Positions 20,444 through 27,414 of a stretch of 35,183 nt of DNA are shown piece after piece. The notes beneath the pieces are model-generated. The model saw nothing but the letters and a program-made list of their open reading frames with translations, was not told the origin of the DNA and made no database searches. The DNA is from an uncultured Acidimicrobiales bacterium (GTDB taxonomy: Bacteria > Actinomycetota > Acidimicrobiia > Acidimicrobiales > SZUA-35): the NCBI GenBank assembly GCA_937922785.1, contig CALAJQ010000041.1:1-35183 (forward strand). Reading direction: 5' to 3'. The position numbers were made by a program, and so were the translations under genes. Numbering within the stretch: position 1 is the stretch's first letter; each line of letters starts with the position of its first letter.

Positions 20444-23236
20444 CTAGCCGTCAGAGGCAGCGGCGTCATCGGCGCCCGAAGAATCAGCGGCTGTTTCGCC
20501 AGTGTCGCCAGGGTCAGCTGTGTCGGCGGCAGAACGCTTCTTAGCTGCGGTCTTGGCCTTCGCCGGCGACTTCTTTTTGGTTGCTGCTTTCTTGGTTGCT
20601 GCCTTTTTCTTGGAGCTTGCCTTCTTTTTGGCCTTCTTCTTGGCCTTCTTCTTTTTCTTTGAAGGACCGGCGGCTCGCCGTTCGGCAAGAAGCTCCGAGG
20701 CACGCTCGATGGTCATTTCTTCCATGTCGTCGCCCTTGCGAAGGCTGGCGTTGTCGACGCCGTCGGTCACATAGATTCCGAAACGGCCCTCTTTCATCAC
20801 AACGTTTAGTTCTGTTGCAGGGTCAACGCCCATGTCTCGAAGCGGAGGCTTGGCCGTGCCCCGACGCTTCGGTTCGGCAAAGATCTTGACCGCTTGGTCC
20901 AATGTCATCGAGAAGATGAGGTCTTCGCTTTCGATTGTTCGAGAGTCAGTGCCCTTCTTGATATAGGGGCCGTACCGACCGTTTTGAGCAGTGATCTCGG
21001 CACCGTCTTCTGGGTGGTTGCCAATAACTCTGGGCAAGCTCATCAGCTTGAGAGCGTCTTCCAAGGTGATTTCTTGGGGATCCATGTCGGAGAACAATGA
21101 TGCGGTCTTTGGCTTGGTCTCGGTCTCATCGTCGTGCTCGCCCATTTGGACGTATGGCCCGAATCGGCCAGCCTTCAACTCAACATCGAGACCCGTCTCG
21201 GGGTGAACACCGAGGACCCGGTCACTCTTGGGCGCCTCGATAATCTCGATTGCTTTTTCGATTGTTAGCTCATCAGGCGCCAGATCTTCAGGAACAGAAG
21301 CTCGATCTTCGCCGCGTTCGAGGTAAGGACCGTATTGACCAACTCTTGCCACGATCAGTACACCGTCAGAGTCGGCTCCAAGCGGAATCGAGTTGACGGC
21401 GCGAGCGTCTATTTCGCCCAGGCGAGTTTCTACCTTGTTCTTCAGGCCGTGTTCGTTCGCCAGTTCAGCCGACGATGCCCCGAAGTAGAACTTCGACAGG
21501 TATGGAATGGCTTCAGCGCTACCCCCGGCAATGTCATCGAGGTCACGCTCCATCTGAGCAGTAAACGCGTAATCGACTAGGTCGGGGAAATGCTGTTCCA
21601 ACAACGTCACCACTGCAAAGGCCAAGAAGGTCGGCACCATCGCCGAGCCCTTTTTACGGGCATACCCTCGGTCCTGGATGGTTCCCATGATCGATGCGTA
21701 AGTTGAAGGTCGGCCTACACCTAGTTCTTCCAGCTTCTTGATTAGCGAAGCTTCGGTGAAGCGGGCTGGAGGCTGGGTGTCATGGCCGGCAGGTTCTGAA
21801 GTTGTAAGCGTTGCACTGTCGCCCTGTTCGAGGGGTGGCAACAGCTGCTCGGTTACTTCCTCTTCGACGGCGTCTTCGTCCTTGGCCACCTCGTAGGCGC
21901 TGAGAAAACCCTTGTGAGAAATAACGGTGCCCGAAGTGGAGAATGTTGCGGTGCGATTGTCGGTAGATGCTACGTCGAGACGGAGGGTTACTGTTTCGCC
22001 TGTTGCATCGGTCATCTGGCTTGCAACGGTTCGTTGCCAGATCAGTTCATAAACCTGGAGCTGCTGACGTGACAATTCACTCTGAACTTGTTCAGGCGTG
22101 CGGAACTGGTCACCGGCGGGACGAATCGCCTCGTGCGCCTCTTGCGCGTTCTTAACTTTGCTCTTGTAAGTTCGCGGCTCGTCAGGCACAAAGTTCTTGC
22201 CGTATCGAGCTTCAATCTGTGAGCGGGCAGCGGCTACAGCGGTCTCTGAAAGCGTGACTGAGTCCGTTCGCATGTAGGTGATGAAGCCACCTTCATAAAG
22301 ACCTTGGGCCACTCGCATCGCTTGAGCCGAAGACATGCGCAGTTTCCGGCCAGCCTCTTGCTGGTAGGTAGAGGTGATAAACGGGGCAGCAGGGCGGCGT
22401 CGATAAGGCTTGGCCTCACGGCTCTTCACGGTTGCGGGCCGGCCATCAAGGGTTGTTGCTAGATCTGCCGAGCTCCCAGCATCGAGATGGACCATTCCTT
22501 CCTTTTCAAGGTGGCCCTCTGAGTTGAAGTCTTTTCCGGAGGCAATTCTCTTGCCGTCGAGTTCAAGCAACATCGCTTGAAAGGGCTTGTCGCCTTTGAC
22601 CGAATCAAAGGTGCCCTTGAGATCCCAGTAGTTGGCTGACACAAATGCCATCCGTAAACGCTCGCGCTCTACGATCACTCGGGTCGCAACGCTCTGAACG
22701 CGTCCAGCCGAGATTCTTGGCTTGACTTTCTTCCAAAGAACCGGCGACACCTCATATCCGTAAAGCCGATCGAGAAGCCGTCGAGCTTCTTGGGCATCAA
22801 CCAAGTGGCGGTCAAGTTCACGGGGGCTGTCAATGGCCCGGCCGATCGCCTCGGGGGTGATCTCGTGAAAGACCATTCGCTTAACTGGAACCTTTGGGTT
22901 CAAGACCTCAAGTAGGTGCCACGCAATGGCTTCCCCCTCGCGATCCTCATCAGTTGCAAGCAGGAGTTCGTCTGACTCTTTAAGCAGAGCTTTCAGCTTC
23001 TTGACTTGATCTTTCTTCTCGGGAGAGACGATGTAGAGGGGTTTGAAGTCGTTTGCGGTGTCAATTCCAAGCCGGGCCCACTTCTCTTTCTTGTACGCCT
23101 CTGGCACATCTTTGGCGTTGCGCGGCAGGTCCCGAACGTGCCCAATGGACGATTCGACGACATAGTCATCACCCAAATAACCCGCAATAGTGCGAGCTTT
23201 TGATGGGGATTCGACGATTACAAGAGATTTACTCAC
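20444..23236 (-). CDS. topA: DNA topoisomerase I (type IA)
   Basis: The 930-residue enzyme relaxes negative supercoils. The Toprim domain opens with SLVIVESPSKARTIAGYLG and has LLATDEDREGEAIAWHL. The active-site tyrosine lies in GFITYMRTDSVTLS. The C-terminal part has four or so repeated GRFGPYVQ/GRYGPYIKKG-type modules (topo I C-terminal repeats without zinc cysteines), then a strongly basic tail (about 858-900) rich in Lys/Ala, ending in an acidic low-complexity segment. Lysine-rich tails are a known feature of actinobacterial TopA and aid DNA binding and processivity. Start GTG at 23236. It follows nhaA by 17 bases. Confidence 0.96.
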   Translation of the reverse strand: MSKSLVIVESPSKARTIAGYLGDDYVVESSIGHVRDLPRNAKDVPEAYKKEKWARLGIDTANDFKPLYIVSPEKKDQVKKLKALLKESDELLLATDEDREGEAIAWHLLEVLNPKVPVKRMVFHEITPEAIGRAIDSPRELDRHLVDAQEARRLLDRLYGYEVSPVLWKKVKPRISAGRVQSVATRVIVERERLRMAFVSANYWDLKGTFDSVKGDKPFQAMLLELDGKRIASGKDFNSEGHLEKEGMVHLDAGSSADLATTLDGRPATVKSREAKPYRRRPAAPFITSTYQQEAGRKLRMSSAQAMRVAQGLYEGGFITYMRTDSVTLSETAVAAARSQIEARYGKNFVPDEPRTYKSKVKNAQEAHEAIRPAGDQFRTPEQVQSELSRQQLQVYELIWQRTVASQMTDATGETVTLRLDVASTDNRTATFSTSGTVISHKGFLSAYEVAKDEDAVEEEVTEQLLPPLEQGDSATLTTSEPAGHDTQPPARFTEASLIKKLEELGVGRPSTYASIMGTIQDRGYARKKGSAMVPTFLAFAVVTLLEQHFPDLVDYAFTAQMERDLDDIAGGSAEAIPYLSKFYFGASSAELANEHGLKNKVETRLGEIDARAVNSIPLGADSDGVLIVARVGQYGPYLERGEDRASVPEDLAPDELTIEKAIEIIEAPKSDRVLGVHPETGLDVELKAGRFGPYVQMGEHDDETETKPKTASLFSDMDPQEITLEDALKLMSLPRVIGNHPEDGAEITAQNGRYGPYIKKGTDSRTIESEDLIFSMTLDQAVKIFAEPKRRGTAKPPLRDMGVDPATELNVVMKEGRFGIYVTDGVDNASLRKGDDMEEMTIERASELLAERRAAGPSKKKKKAKKKAKKKASSKKKAATKKAATKKKSPAKAKTAAKKRSAADTADPGDTGETAADSSGADDAAASDG

Positions 23237-24609: not shown

Positions 24610-25053
24610 CTACTGCGATAGTTCCACTTCTACGGTCGTGCCCTTTTTTGTTGATGTGAACTTCGCCGCTCCATCGCTGAGTTTCTCGATGAGTGGAACC
24701 CCAAACCCACCCTCAATCGCGAGCCGATCCGGATGGGTGATGTCGGGCAATGGCATCGCTGCACCCATCCCCGGGCCCTGATCGGTGATCTTAAGTTTCA
24801 CCCTCTTTGCGCCAAGCTCACAGACAATCTTCACCCGGCCCGAGCCACCAACAGCCAAGTTCGCCTGAATGGCATTGGTGACCGCTTCAGATGTGACCAA
24901 GCGCAGATCCTCTAGTCGGTCACCCTTTAGTACTCCAGCCGCCGCAGCGGCTTCGCTTATGACCATTCGCACGACAGTTACCAGGTCAAGACGCGACGGA
25001 AGATCAATGGTTACCACTTCGCTTGATTTCGTCTGTCTTGGCCGAGAAACCAT
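24610..25053 (-). CDS. RsbW-like anti-sigma / ATP-binding serine kinase-fold protein
   Basis: From the ATG at 25053 the protein has 147 residues; a TTG at 25089 would add 12 and overlap the upstream gene. It is a single HATPase_c domain: the N-box LRLVTSEAVTNAIQAN, G1 motif DQGPGMGAAM, and G2-like GGFGVPLIEKLSD, ending KKGTTVEVELSQ. Homologues of this type phosphorylate or sequester partner-switching proteins and often bind sigma factors. The usual antagonist (STAS-domain anti-anti-sigma factor) is not adjacent. No sensor domain is visible. In Streptomyces a similar gene lies beside bldG near topA and a helicase. Confidence 0.88.
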   Translation of the reverse strand: MVSRPRQTKSSEVVTIDLPSRLDLVTVVRMVISEAAAAAGVLKGDRLEDLRLVTSEAVTNAIQANLAVGGSGRVKIVCELGAKRVKLKITDQGPGMGAAMPLPDITHPDRLAIEGGFGVPLIEKLSDGAAKFTSTKKGTTVEVELSQ

Positions 25054-25067
25054 CTGCGCTTTTGAAT

Positions 25068-26306
25068 CTAGCTGACAGTGCGGCGCCAACTGCTAAATGA
25101 GGCAACGCTTCCATCACTGGGTCTCAGCAGCCACGGGAATGGATAAACACCAGCAGGCTTGATGCGGGCCGATTTCCTGGCAAAGCCTGGTGTGGGGGCA
25201 AAGGTAACAGCGGGCTCACGGTCGGCTAGAACCTCTTCAGGCCGCCCGAGCCAAAGCTCAAGATCGCGATGTTCAGCAATTTCAGCCAATGTCTCGGTGA
25301 GAAAGACAAGTCGCTTGGCTGATAGTTGAAGCTTGCTTAGCAGCGGCTCATCGAACACAAAGATGACCGGCAGATCGGGTTTAGCCACCAGCGCAGGATC
25401 GCTCAGTCCCAACGACTCAGCCGTTAGCCAAACCGATCTTGGGGCCCCAAACATGTGGCTTCGTTCTGGCCCGGCGATGGTTTCCACATCCACAACGGTC
25501 TCGACACTTAGTGGAATCGAAGCCGGCTTGAGCTCTGGATTCTCTGGCCATTGCTCGATAGGGCACTCTTGGCAAAGGTCACAGCTTGCGCACAATCCAG
25601 GTGCCCGCTTTTCCACCTGCCATCTGCTGAAACCGTAACTCTTTGAACTTCCTTGGCCCGAAGTCCACTGCCAACCGAGACGGTTCGCAGCACGGGAACC
25701 ATCAAGAAGATGCTTGAAGAAATAGTCTTCGCCGTCGGCCACAGCCTGACCTGATCGGACCGACCATTGACTAGCAAGCCACATGCGAGCCTGGTTGACC
25801 ACCCAACCCTCTTCCTCAAGCTCTTCCAGGCTCGTTTCGACACAGGCCATCTTTCGATCCCAACCAGGCTCTACTGCGGACCCCAACAAGTGATGACGAA
25901 CCGGCTTTGCCGTGCGGTCCCCCAGCCGGGCATACCAATGGCGGGCATACTCCTGCCACAACAACTCACTTCGGAACTTGCGAACATCTTCCTGAGGCCC
26001 GCCCTCTACGTGGTTCCAAACGTCACGAAGCGAGATGAGTCCGTGGCGGATGTATGGGGAAAGACCCGATGCGCCGCGCCGTTTAGTCGGCAGAACTTCG
26101 TTTCGTTTGCAGGCGTAGTGCTCAACATCAAAGGCCGCCAGTGCGTCGTCGGCAGCACTTTGACCTCCTCGGATCGACGGGGCAGCCTCAATTTCAGCGC
26201 CCGAAGAGCCTTCGAGCGTCAGCGCGCCAAGGTGGCTCCTGACGAATTCAATGGCCGATTCAGGCCCCAGGGCTGGGGTCTTTAGGCGGCTGCTCGACGG
26301 CTCCAT
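25068..26306 (-). CDS. Photolyase/cryptochrome homologue with permuted domains and a CxxCxxCxxC cluster motif
   Basis: The 412-residue protein (ATG at 26306; the frame opens earlier at a TTG) has the photolyase FAD domain first: GASGLSPYIRHGLISLRDVW (79-98), LLWQEYARHWYARLG (115-129), EEGWVVNQARMWLASQW (165-181), and YFFKHLLDGSRAANRLGWQW (195-214). The Asn that contacts flavin N5 in E. coli photolyase (N378) aligns with N208, and W382 with W212; the W359 position is valine. LCASCDLCQECP then gives Cys 239, 242, 245, 248 in a ferredoxin-like spacing. The C-terminal part (about 290-412) resembles the normally N-terminal alpha/beta domain: VWLTAESLGLSDPAL, PVIFVFDEPLL, RLVFLTETLAEI, GRPEEVLADR and a final FSSWRR. 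Thus the order is reversed. Light-dependent DNA repair or sensing is inferred. It overlaps the hydroxylase gene by 47 bases. Confidence 0.82.
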   Translation of the reverse strand: MEPSSSRLKTPALGPESAIEFVRSHLGALTLEGSSGAEIEAAPSIRGGQSAADDALAAFDVEHYACKRNEVLPTKRRGASGLSPYIRHGLISLRDVWNHVEGGPQEDVRKFRSELLWQEYARHWYARLGDRTAKPVRHHLLGSAVEPGWDRKMACVETSLEELEEEGWVVNQARMWLASQWSVRSGQAVADGEDYFFKHLLDGSRAANRLGWQWTSGQGSSKSYGFSRWQVEKRAPGLCASCDLCQECPIEQWPENPELKPASIPLSVETVVDVETIAGPERSHMFGAPRSVWLTAESLGLSDPALVAKPDLPVIFVFDEPLLSKLQLSAKRLVFLTETLAEIAEHRDLELWLGRPEEVLADREPAVTFAPTPGFARKSARIKPAGVYPFPWLLRPSDGSVASFSSWRRTVS

Positions 26307-27414
26307 AGTTATATAAGAGTCGTCTACTAGCAGCCTCAATTGAGTCCGACGGGTGATTCTGCTCCCCCACTGGGCCTCCGGGATCAGGCACCAGTTTCGT
26401 ATCCGGAACTGGTGGCTTCAACGTCTTGGGTGCTGAATGAGTCGGCCGTAGTGTCGACTCTTTGATTCCGGCATAAAGCCTGGTCAAACCATTTCTAGCT
26501 GCCTTGAAACCCAGAACCGGGTGGCGCCACAGATGCAGATAGTGGCGAGACCCTCGACAAGGATAAGAAAGCTGTCCGAGCATGTGGTCGGGCATATATT
26601 CATTTACCCCGTAGAAGCGTGGTCGGCGACCCCCGCTAGGCATAAAGAAGGTTCCAAAAAGTAGATCCCAAAGAGGAATTGCGGGCGCATAGTTGTGGCC
26701 AATGGCGTCGGCTTCGTTGGCATGATGCCAATGGTGGAACTCAGGATTGGCAAAAATCTTGTCCAACCAACGCAAGCGGAGGCGAACATTGGCGTGGAAA
26801 AACAAGCCCAAAAAGATCTGAACCAGGGCCAGCACTCCAGTAACTTCAGCGCCGAATCCGGCCGCCAATAGGAACATGACTGGTGGCGCTATGAGAATGC
26901 CGTCGAACGGGTGAATCCGGAACCCGCTGATCCAATCCATATGTTCGGGAGAATGGTGGACGGCGTGAAAGCGCCACAGGAAGGGGACTTCGTGAGCCCA
27001 CCGGTGAGTCCAATACCCCAGAAAATCGAACAAGAACAACCCGATAAACGGCAGAGCTGAAGCCGGCAGCATGGCAACCAAGGGCCGCAATGCCAGTCCT
27101 GGCAACCAGAACAAACTGAACCCACCGATAATGACAACAGCGATAATTGAAGCCACCTGAAGAACGGGGCTCATCAGTGCAAACGCAATGTCGCTGGTCA
27201 CCCCGGGCCTGCGAATCTTTTGCCCTTTCTGTCTCGGGTACAGCTTTTCCAACGGAGAGAGGATCAGAAACAGCACAGCGATGGCACCAAAGATGCTGCG
27301 GTCCATCAAGAAAGCAATACCAATTCCTACTGCGATGACGGCCATTCGCTTCAGTGGCCACGGCGACCGTTCGGGGGTCGTGTGGAGTTGTGGGGTTTGA
27401 GTTGTTGCGGTCAT
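26260..27414 (-). CDS. Fatty acid hydroxylase / sterol desaturase superfamily membrane protein
   Basis: The 384-residue protein has about five to six hydrophobic segments and the histidine clusters that bind a di-iron site: HRWAHE (137-142), RFHAVHHSPEHMDW (148-161), FFHANV (206-211) and HHWHHANEADAIGHNYA (227-243). These enzymes hydroxylate or desaturate lipids, sterols or carotenoids using oxygen. The C-terminal 70 residues are Pro/charged and look disordered. Substrate unknown. AAAGGGG lies just before the ATG at 27414. It is divergent from the ECF sigma gene and overlaps the permuted photolyase gene, so the two are probably co-expressed; a carotenoid or lipid role under light stress is speculation. 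Confidence 0.88.
   Translation of the reverse strand: MTATTQTPQLHTTPERSPWPLKRMAVIAVGIGIAFLMDRSIFGAIAVLFLILSPLEKLYPRQKGQKIRRPGVTSDIAFALMSPVLQVASIIAVVIIGGFSLFWLPGLALRPLVAMLPASALPFIGLFLFDFLGYWTHRWAHEVPFLWRFHAVHHSPEHMDWISGFRIHPFDGILIAPPVMFLLAAGFGAEVTGVLALVQIFLGLFFHANVRLRLRWLDKIFANPEFHHWHHANEADAIGHNYAPAIPLWDLLFGTFFMPSGGRRPRFYGVNEYMPDHMLGQLSYPCRGSRHYLHLWRHPVLGFKAARNGLTRLYAGIKESTLRPTHSAPKTLKPPVPDTKLVPDPGGPVGEQNHPSDSIEAASRRLLYNYGAVEQPPKDPSPGA

Follow-up and report, generated by a model that had tools for sequence, protein, structure and literature searches.

A predicted photolyase with reversed domain order and a probable iron-sulphur site in an uncultured Acidimicrobiales bacterium

Introduction

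Can a photolyase be built with its two domains in the opposite order from the usual one, and what might such a protein do? The question is raised by a gene in a 35,183-nucleotide stretch of DNA from an uncultured Acidimicrobiales bacterium (contig CALAJQ010000041.1), a stretch that we refer to in its entirety as the window. In the product of this gene (Table 1) the motifs of the domain that binds flavin adenine dinucleotide (FAD) come first. The prediction that the gene encodes a light-driven flavoprotein of the DNA-repair type, with its domains in the opposite order from that of ordinary photolyases, appears to be largely right. The protein belongs to a reverse-domain kind of photolyase that was already published in 2022. 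Reversed domains are described for the products of phr4 and phr5 in marine Synechococcus and of phr6 in Cyanobium, with cysteines C169, C254, C257 and C263 spaced 85/3/6 (passages of PMC9426592). Our search of the open-licence literature turned up no report of such a photolyase from actinobacteria.

Results

Domain order

The FAD motifs do stand first, as a preliminary description of the gene had proposed: GLSPYIRHGLIS occupies residues 81-92 and AANRLGWQW residues 206-214, in the numbering of Table 1 (an alternative TTG start is possible at 26339). In a Pfam scan the sole domain recognised was FAD_binding_7 (residues 155-223, 40 bits with a cut-off of 27); there was no match to the DNA_photolyase alpha/beta domain, and none to the DPRP domain (PF04244) at E values up to 10. 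The top NCBIfam match was the 8-hydroxy-5-deazaflavin (8-HDF) photolyase model, which fell far under the cut-off (TIGR03556, 56.1 against 884.6 bits). Class I photolyases headed a phmmer search of the PDB (1owl, E 2.4e-13 over residues 62-220). In a structural comparison of the FAD domain with VIA-align, the top rows were the iron-sulphur bacterial cryptochromes and photolyases (FeS-BCPs; Z 17.7), tied with class I photolyases (16.9) and aligned within residues 1-263.

Since Pfam sees residues 155-223 only, the alpha/beta domain had to be demonstrated by other means. AlphaFold2 modelled the full-length protein with a mean predicted local distance difference test score (pLDDT) of 94.7 and a predicted template modelling score of 0.93, and residues 284-412 folded alone reached a pLDDT of 91.5. 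When these C-terminal residues were compared by VIA-align with the first 1000 Foldseek chains, photolyases and cryptochromes filled all 50 of the top rows shown, the best match being E. coli photolyase 1dnp (Z 9.9, root-mean-square deviation (rmsd) 3.7, 124 of 129 residues). Foldseek itself placed class II photolyases and a cryptochrome at ranks 1-7. A profile of the C-terminal domain (40 rows, three stand-alone relatives among them) was matched by hhalign to the N-terminal domains of 26 canonical photolyases, taken from 30 fetched loci, with a probability of 96.5% over 119 columns and with the same internal order. The stand-alone relatives L104-L106, of about 150 residues and from Chloracidobacterium/Blastocatellia records, are 45-47% identical over 66-72 residues and resemble the classical alpha/beta domain more closely than the fused members do; one of them, L105, clears the Pfam cut-off for DNA_photolyase (27 against 26.6 bits). 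The C-terminal segments noticed in the preliminary description are thus present and together make up a photolyase alpha/beta domain. They superpose on its fold, and the reversed order that had been proposed is borne out by the AlphaFold2 model, the fold comparison, the match to N-terminal profiles and the Pfam-positive relative.

Table 1. Features of the reversed photolyase gene and its neighbour, in positions of the window
Feature	Position	Strand	Evidence
Whole gene, FAD-domain-first photolyase-like protein, 412 aa	25068..26306	minus	Open reading frame call; AlphaFold2 model
Photolyase FAD-binding (all-alpha) domain, residues 1-238	25593..26306	minus	Pfam, phmmer, VIA-align
Photolyase alpha/beta (antenna-type) domain, residues 284-412, C-terminal not N-terminal	25071..25457	minus	Structure and profile comparison
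Cys155, first probable [4Fe-4S] ligand	25842..25844	minus	Cys in 81/81; opposite FeS-BCP Cys1
Asn171, E. coli N341 position	25794..25796	minus	Alignment; N 75, G 5, H 1 of 81
Val189, E. coli W359 position (middle Trp of triad), codon GTG	25740..25742	minus	Trp in the other 80/81
Cys239, second probable cluster ligand	25590..25592	minus	Cys in 81/81; opposite FeS-BCP Cys2
Cys242, third probable cluster ligand	25581..25583	minus	Cys in 81/81; opposite FeS-BCP Cys3
Cys245, unconserved, probably no ligand	25572..25574	minus	Cys in 1/81, the window itself
Cys248, fourth probable cluster ligand, in invariant CP pair (P249 81/81)	25563..25565	minus	Opposite FeS-BCP CP pair
HATPase_c_2 (anti-sigma/RsbW-like) protein, downstream neighbour	24610..25089	minus	Pfam; synteny

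Cysteines

Conservation was counted over 81 distinct sequences, the window protein and 80 relatives, which remained from 99 rows after removal of identical entries arising from overlapping genome collections; the set leaves out L002, L102-L106 and one row containing X. Among its 29 invariant columns four are cysteines, C155, C239, C242 and C248, and their spacing is 84/3/6 in 76 sequences, 83/3/6 in four and 80/3/6 in one. It had been suggested that a ferredoxin-type CxxCxxCxxC motif, perhaps unique, lies at the hinge between the domains. Cysteines do sit at 239, 242, 245 and 248, and three of these are conserved throughout, but position 245 is a cysteine in the window protein alone (R in 22 sequences, V in 14, S in 12, others in the rest), and the distant C155 had been overlooked. 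We therefore reject CxxCxxCxxC as a unit and as a ferredoxin motif. The four-cysteine motif is not unique either, for Synechococcus Phr4 and Cyanobium Phr6 share the four conserved cysteines.

Across ten FeS-BCP photolyases, drawn from genomes of relatives and in one case from the window's own, four cysteines in the FAD domain are invariant. Their alignment represents ten of 26 DPRP-positive genomes, every one with the cysteine set, and omits twelve Actinomarina genomes and G059, G066, G085 and G093. When 50 members of the window family were compared profile to profile with the FeS-BCPs (probability 96.7%, 173 columns), all four cysteines stood opposite each other. Because C155, C239, C242 and C248 align with the [4Fe-4S] ligands of the FeS-BCPs, the predicted site is probably an iron-sulphur (Fe-S) cluster in the FAD domain rather than a ferredoxin at the hinge. 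Cys1 and Cys2 of FeS-BCPs lie 86-89 residues apart and 12-15 residues separate Cys3 from Cys4 (passage in PMC3204975); only five are enclosed here, so the last loop is shorter in the window family. Cysteine mutants of PhrB were unexpressed or insoluble, according to a passage in PMC4619345.

Active site

The alignment to E. coli Phr counts the initial methionine, and literature numbers are one lower than that count. Aligned to this protein, the window protein has E274, W277, N341, R344, M345, D372, N378, W382 and W384. We take E274, W277, N341, M345 and W384 to be the positions that contact a cyclobutane pyrimidine dimer (CPD). The corresponding residues E114, W117, N171, M175 and W214 are kept in 76, 80, 75, 70 and 74 of the 81 sequences respectively, and N208, at the N378 position, in all of them. 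The active-site histidine of the FeS-BCPs (H366 of PhrB) is absent from the window protein, where N171 stands instead, and each of the three FeS-BCPs aligned has histidine there; from this we infer specificity for CPDs over (6-4) products, to which lesion contacts of the class I CPD type would also point. Repair by PhrB was lost in the H366A mutant (abstract of PMC4619345).

Five relatives (L027, L029, L030, L031 and L093) have glycine in place of the N341-type asparagine and changes at M345 and W384, and keep N378, W382 and the four cysteines; they are possible non-repair paralogues. The genome of L030 (G024) has a second reversed copy on another contig.

The valine reported at the position of E. 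coli W359, the middle tryptophan of the electron-transfer triad, is present (V189). A different electron path to FAD had been suggested on this basis, but the middle tryptophan is missing in the window protein only, which makes its loss a local oddity and no trait of the family.

Distribution and fusion history

A strong match is present in 38 of the 39 genomes of the window's family, its own counted; the exception, G027, has a weak match only, of a size typical of ordinary photolyases. In a class sample of 296 genomes the best match was below 1e-40 in 62, or about one fifth as counted from the listed rows, while 99 gave weak matches (best 3.6e-16) and 135 none. One Actinomarina-like family, f29, supplied 35 of the 62; the idea that all f29 genomes have the protein was rejected, as G075 and G091, both in a set of 60 genomes, are not among the class-sample matches. 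A scan of genome contigs yielded 48 loci, 45 of which contain all or some of the FAD part, and 27 of these 45 are titled Acidimicrobi-. Four Listeria records among the phage records gave partial matches only. Typical actinobacterial versions are carried by records L074 (Spirochaeta sp., 56% identical) and L081 (Deltaproteobacteria, 55% identical), so the names of those metagenome-assembled genomes are probably wrong.

The two halves occur in several arrangements. Deinococcus plasmids carry fused forms (L107, L109), and on a plasmid of Deinococcus sp. QL22 (L108, 2450-3741) overlapping genes encode a FAD part with CxxCxxxC and then a GTG-started alpha/beta part, an arrangement that recalls Synechococcus phr4/phr5. 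In the genomes of L104-L106 the FAD part, a 263-276 aa open frame that has the cysteine set, and the alpha/beta gene are on different contigs: these differ in length, and no 31-mer is common to the two loci. Short photolyase-like proteins (SPLs) without the four cysteines were found as well (Ruegeria L110, Frigoribacterium L198, L203), and the Frigoribacterium genome also carries a reversed Fe-S form, L091.

In a tree of 46 FAD domains the actinobacterial family forms one clade (99/97), apart from the FeS-BCPs (100/100), and the class I proteins, the SPLs and the forms from Deinococcus and Chloracidobacterium branch from a fork that is not resolved. This tree, for which the program cautions about long branches, omits L156, L157, L160, L196 and L142 (no frame with the motif). 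Deinococcus and Chloracidobacterium relatives serve in it as stand-ins for the cyanobacterial genes, and it does not resolve where they stand with respect to the actinobacterial clade. We accordingly gave up reading a fusion history from the tree, its fork being unresolved outside the actinobacterial clade. The preliminary description had called the protein circularly permuted. The order is indeed reversed, but the term is less apt because split FAD and alpha/beta genes occur in relatives; the protein is better described as a fusion, in the opposite order, of two domains encoded separately. The split genes point to a joining of separate genes and not to permutation of a fused one, although the tree gives no direction.

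Genomic context and other photolyases

Of 43 named loci, several of which are short contigs, 17 have the HATPase_c_2 gene next to the reversed photolyase and in the same orientation. Within these 17, nhaA is present in 16, topA in 15 and a helicase gene in 13. In L093 the photolyase-HATPase pair is kept and nhaA, topA and tmk are inverted on its other side. A conserved operon was rejected, as this is synteny of one lineage only. The topoisomerase I of the window (20444-23236) has a long Lys/Ala-rich, histone-H1-like C-terminal tail.

The FO synthase CofG scored over its cut-off in the window's own genome and in all 16 others tested. FO would thus be available as an antenna, although the evidence is weak because F420 is common in actinobacteria. 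In Actinomarina a gene of the PF04075 F420H2-dependent quinone reductase family lies directly downstream of the reversed photolyase and overlaps it (L208, 3941-4363; L211, 4062-4511).

The window's own genome also encodes a class I photolyase and an FeS-BCP with all four cysteines (L186). The Actinomarina DPRP-type photolyases L141 (G083), L142 (G043) and L145 (G071) co-occur with the reversed protein and do not have the full four-cysteine set, as judged from the sequence of L141 and from cysteine positions. A PF03441 search gave just two matches in 12 of 18 Actinomarina genomes. We considered whether the reversed protein might be the sole CPD photolyase of Actinomarina, hence CPD-specific, and dropped the idea: the 498-aa class II-like protein of G095 is found in 11 of the 12 two-match genomes (as fragments in G067 and cut short in G103). 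A photolyase beside the Actinomarina rhodopsin is mentioned in a passage of PMC7771536. That it might be the reversed protein was rejected, since a class II-like gene occupies the place in six of six genomes (G043, G049, G063, G079, G083, G095).

The VIA-align comparison also returned a chain of a Trypanosoma brucei mitoribosome assembly intermediate (7pub_Ff/7pua_Ff), with one alignment over residues 26-246 (Z 14.5, rmsd 2.5) and another over 26-360 (Z 15.4, rmsd 5.4). The chain seems to be a ribosome assembly factor whose FAD fold resembles that of photolyases; a literature search for a description of chain Ff as a photolyase yielded nothing usable.

Discussion

The computational analysis establishes both folds, their order, the four invariant cysteines and the correspondence of these to the ligands of the FeS-BCPs. 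We think it likely that the protein is a reverse-domain DNA photolyase that binds FAD and a [4Fe-4S] cluster, repairs CPDs by blue light and originated by fusion. The N-terminal domain would bind FAD in a photolyase fold, and the short C-terminal part of that domain would be held by a cluster on C155, C239, C242 and C248, in what may be a structural role. The alpha/beta domain would carry an antenna pigment, as in other photolyases, with FO/8-HDF as a candidate. Blue light would then drive the donation of an electron from FADH- to a pyrimidine dimer, presumably a CPD rather than a (6-4) product. The least certain step is historical: the gene probably arose when a FAD gene and an alpha/beta gene, versions of which persist separately in other phyla, were fused.

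Several observations weigh against this account. Direct sequence proof of the alpha/beta domain failed, with no Pfam match in the window protein, only four of 50 members reaching Pfam DNA_photolyase at E up to 1 (best 0.0074) and a weak PDB profile search (E 0.038). The Foldseek E values for residues 284-412 are weak too (0.014-0.065 in the first seven); none was at or below 0.001, and unrelated folds appear from rank 8. The E. coli D374 position is serine in 80 of the 81 sequences and threonine in one. The window protein has no second triad tryptophan, and the third, W306, has no conserved counterpart among the 81 sequences, the single column between residues 128 and 159 with more than five tryptophans being 149 (61/81). 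With a class I photolyase and an FeS-BCP in the same genome, the reversed protein may be redundant. The likeness to cyanobacterial Phr4, Phr5 and Phr6 is drawn from a published description of domain order and cysteine spacing, and in the literature searched no actinobacterial protein of this kind has an activity, a spectrum or a cluster described. Passages of PMC9426592 add two further difficulties: its authors guess at (6-4) activity from the cysteines, and phr4/phr5 protected E. coli from UV-C without a significant difference between light and dark. The missing light effect fits neither photolyase reading.

The (6-4) activity that the Synechococcus study proposed for Phr4, Phr5 and Phr6 seems to us rather unlikely in the window protein. 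The four cysteines are those of the FeS-BCP (6-4) photolyases, which also top the VIA-align rows, albeit tied with class I enzymes; and cells that had lost phr4 survived less well after UV-C, a treatment with a relatively larger yield of (6-4) lesions, but not after UV-B (passage in PMC9426592). Yet the position of the histidine needed for repair by PhrB is asparagine in 75 of 81 sequences, the tree sets the family apart from the FeS-BCPs on a long, well-supported branch (subject to the long-branch warning), and the window's own genome already has an FeS-BCP with all four cysteines. A cryptochrome-like light or redox sensor that does no DNA repair, perhaps acting with the downstream anti-sigma-type ATPase, we judge unlikely. 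It would suit the protection of E. coli by phr4/phr5 without a significant light effect, the adjoining HATPase_c_2 gene, which stays paired with the photolyase in the rearranged L093, and the five relatives that have lost the N341-, M345- and W384-type contacts while keeping W382, N378 and the four cysteines. The window protein and most relatives, however, retain the lesion contacts intact, the ATPase is a neighbour within a single syntenic block (18 of 61 loci), and no output domain is seen. That the cysteines bind zinc and serve only to stabilise the fold is quite improbable: Cys4 sites can hold zinc, but each of the four columns, that of the first cysteine some 84 residues upstream included, matches a [4Fe-4S] ligand of PhrB and Cc(6-4)PL.

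A reverse-order photolyase of the kind found in picocyanobacteria, with a predicted Fe-S site, is nearly universal in one actinobacterial family, and its halves occur fused, adjacent or on separate contigs across different phyla. It offers a good case for studying how an enzyme of two domains can work with them in either order, and it bears on the purpose of the Fe-S cluster in photolyases, which a 2025 paper on Cc(6-4)PL called unresolved. The prediction to follow is repair of CPDs rather than (6-4) products. Worth pursuing are whether an active site of CPD type and a cluster of FeS-BCP type can function together in a single domain, and the missing light effect of the cyanobacterial pair, as described in the passages cited. 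In a more speculative extension, which we regard as doubtful, the FAD domain would unite a CPD active site like that of class I enzymes with a cluster like that of the FeS-BCPs, and the members that have lost the N341-, M345- and W384-type contacts but keep the FAD residues and the four cysteines would have become light or redox sensors; the UV-C protection of E. coli by the cyanobacterial pair, without a significant light effect, would then stem from cluster-dependent DNA binding and not from photorepair.

Comparison with known systems

The architecture itself is published; what is new here is the fused form in 38 of the 39 family genomes, the Deinococcus plasmid forms, the halves on separate contigs and the CPD-type contacts. 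As far as the published passages describe them, Phr6 of Cyanobium NS01/PCC 7001 and Phr4/Phr5 share with the window protein a FAD domain followed by an alpha/beta domain, with cysteines spaced 85/3/6 compared with 84/3/6 here. Phr4/Phr5 of Synechococcus are a split pair from another phylum, whereas the members aligned here are single genes, like Cyanobium Phr6.

The SPLs likewise have a class I-like FAD domain first and no N-terminal alpha/beta domain (passages of PMC9649867, PMC9498864 and PMC9178010), and Phr7 was placed nearest to Phr4/Phr6 (passage in PMC9426592). Unlike the window family, the SPLs L110, L198 and L203 do not have the four cysteines, and the C-terminal part of L110 is unrecognised by Pfam. 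A passage of PMC9649867 credits Xu et al. 2021 with the idea of an ancestral SPL that was active on CPDs and had an Fe-S cluster, so the pairing of the two is not new.

With the FeS-BCPs (PhrB, CryB) the window family shares a four-cysteine [4Fe-4S]-type site, equivalent column by column; they differ in their active-site histidine, in the longer stretch between Cys3 and Cys4 and in forming a separate clade. With the class I CPD photolyases of E. coli (Phr) and Anacystis the window protein shares the FAD domain and the residues E274, W277, N341, M345, N378 and W384, while those enzymes have the opposite domain order, no Cys4 site and a longer C-terminal part of the FAD domain.
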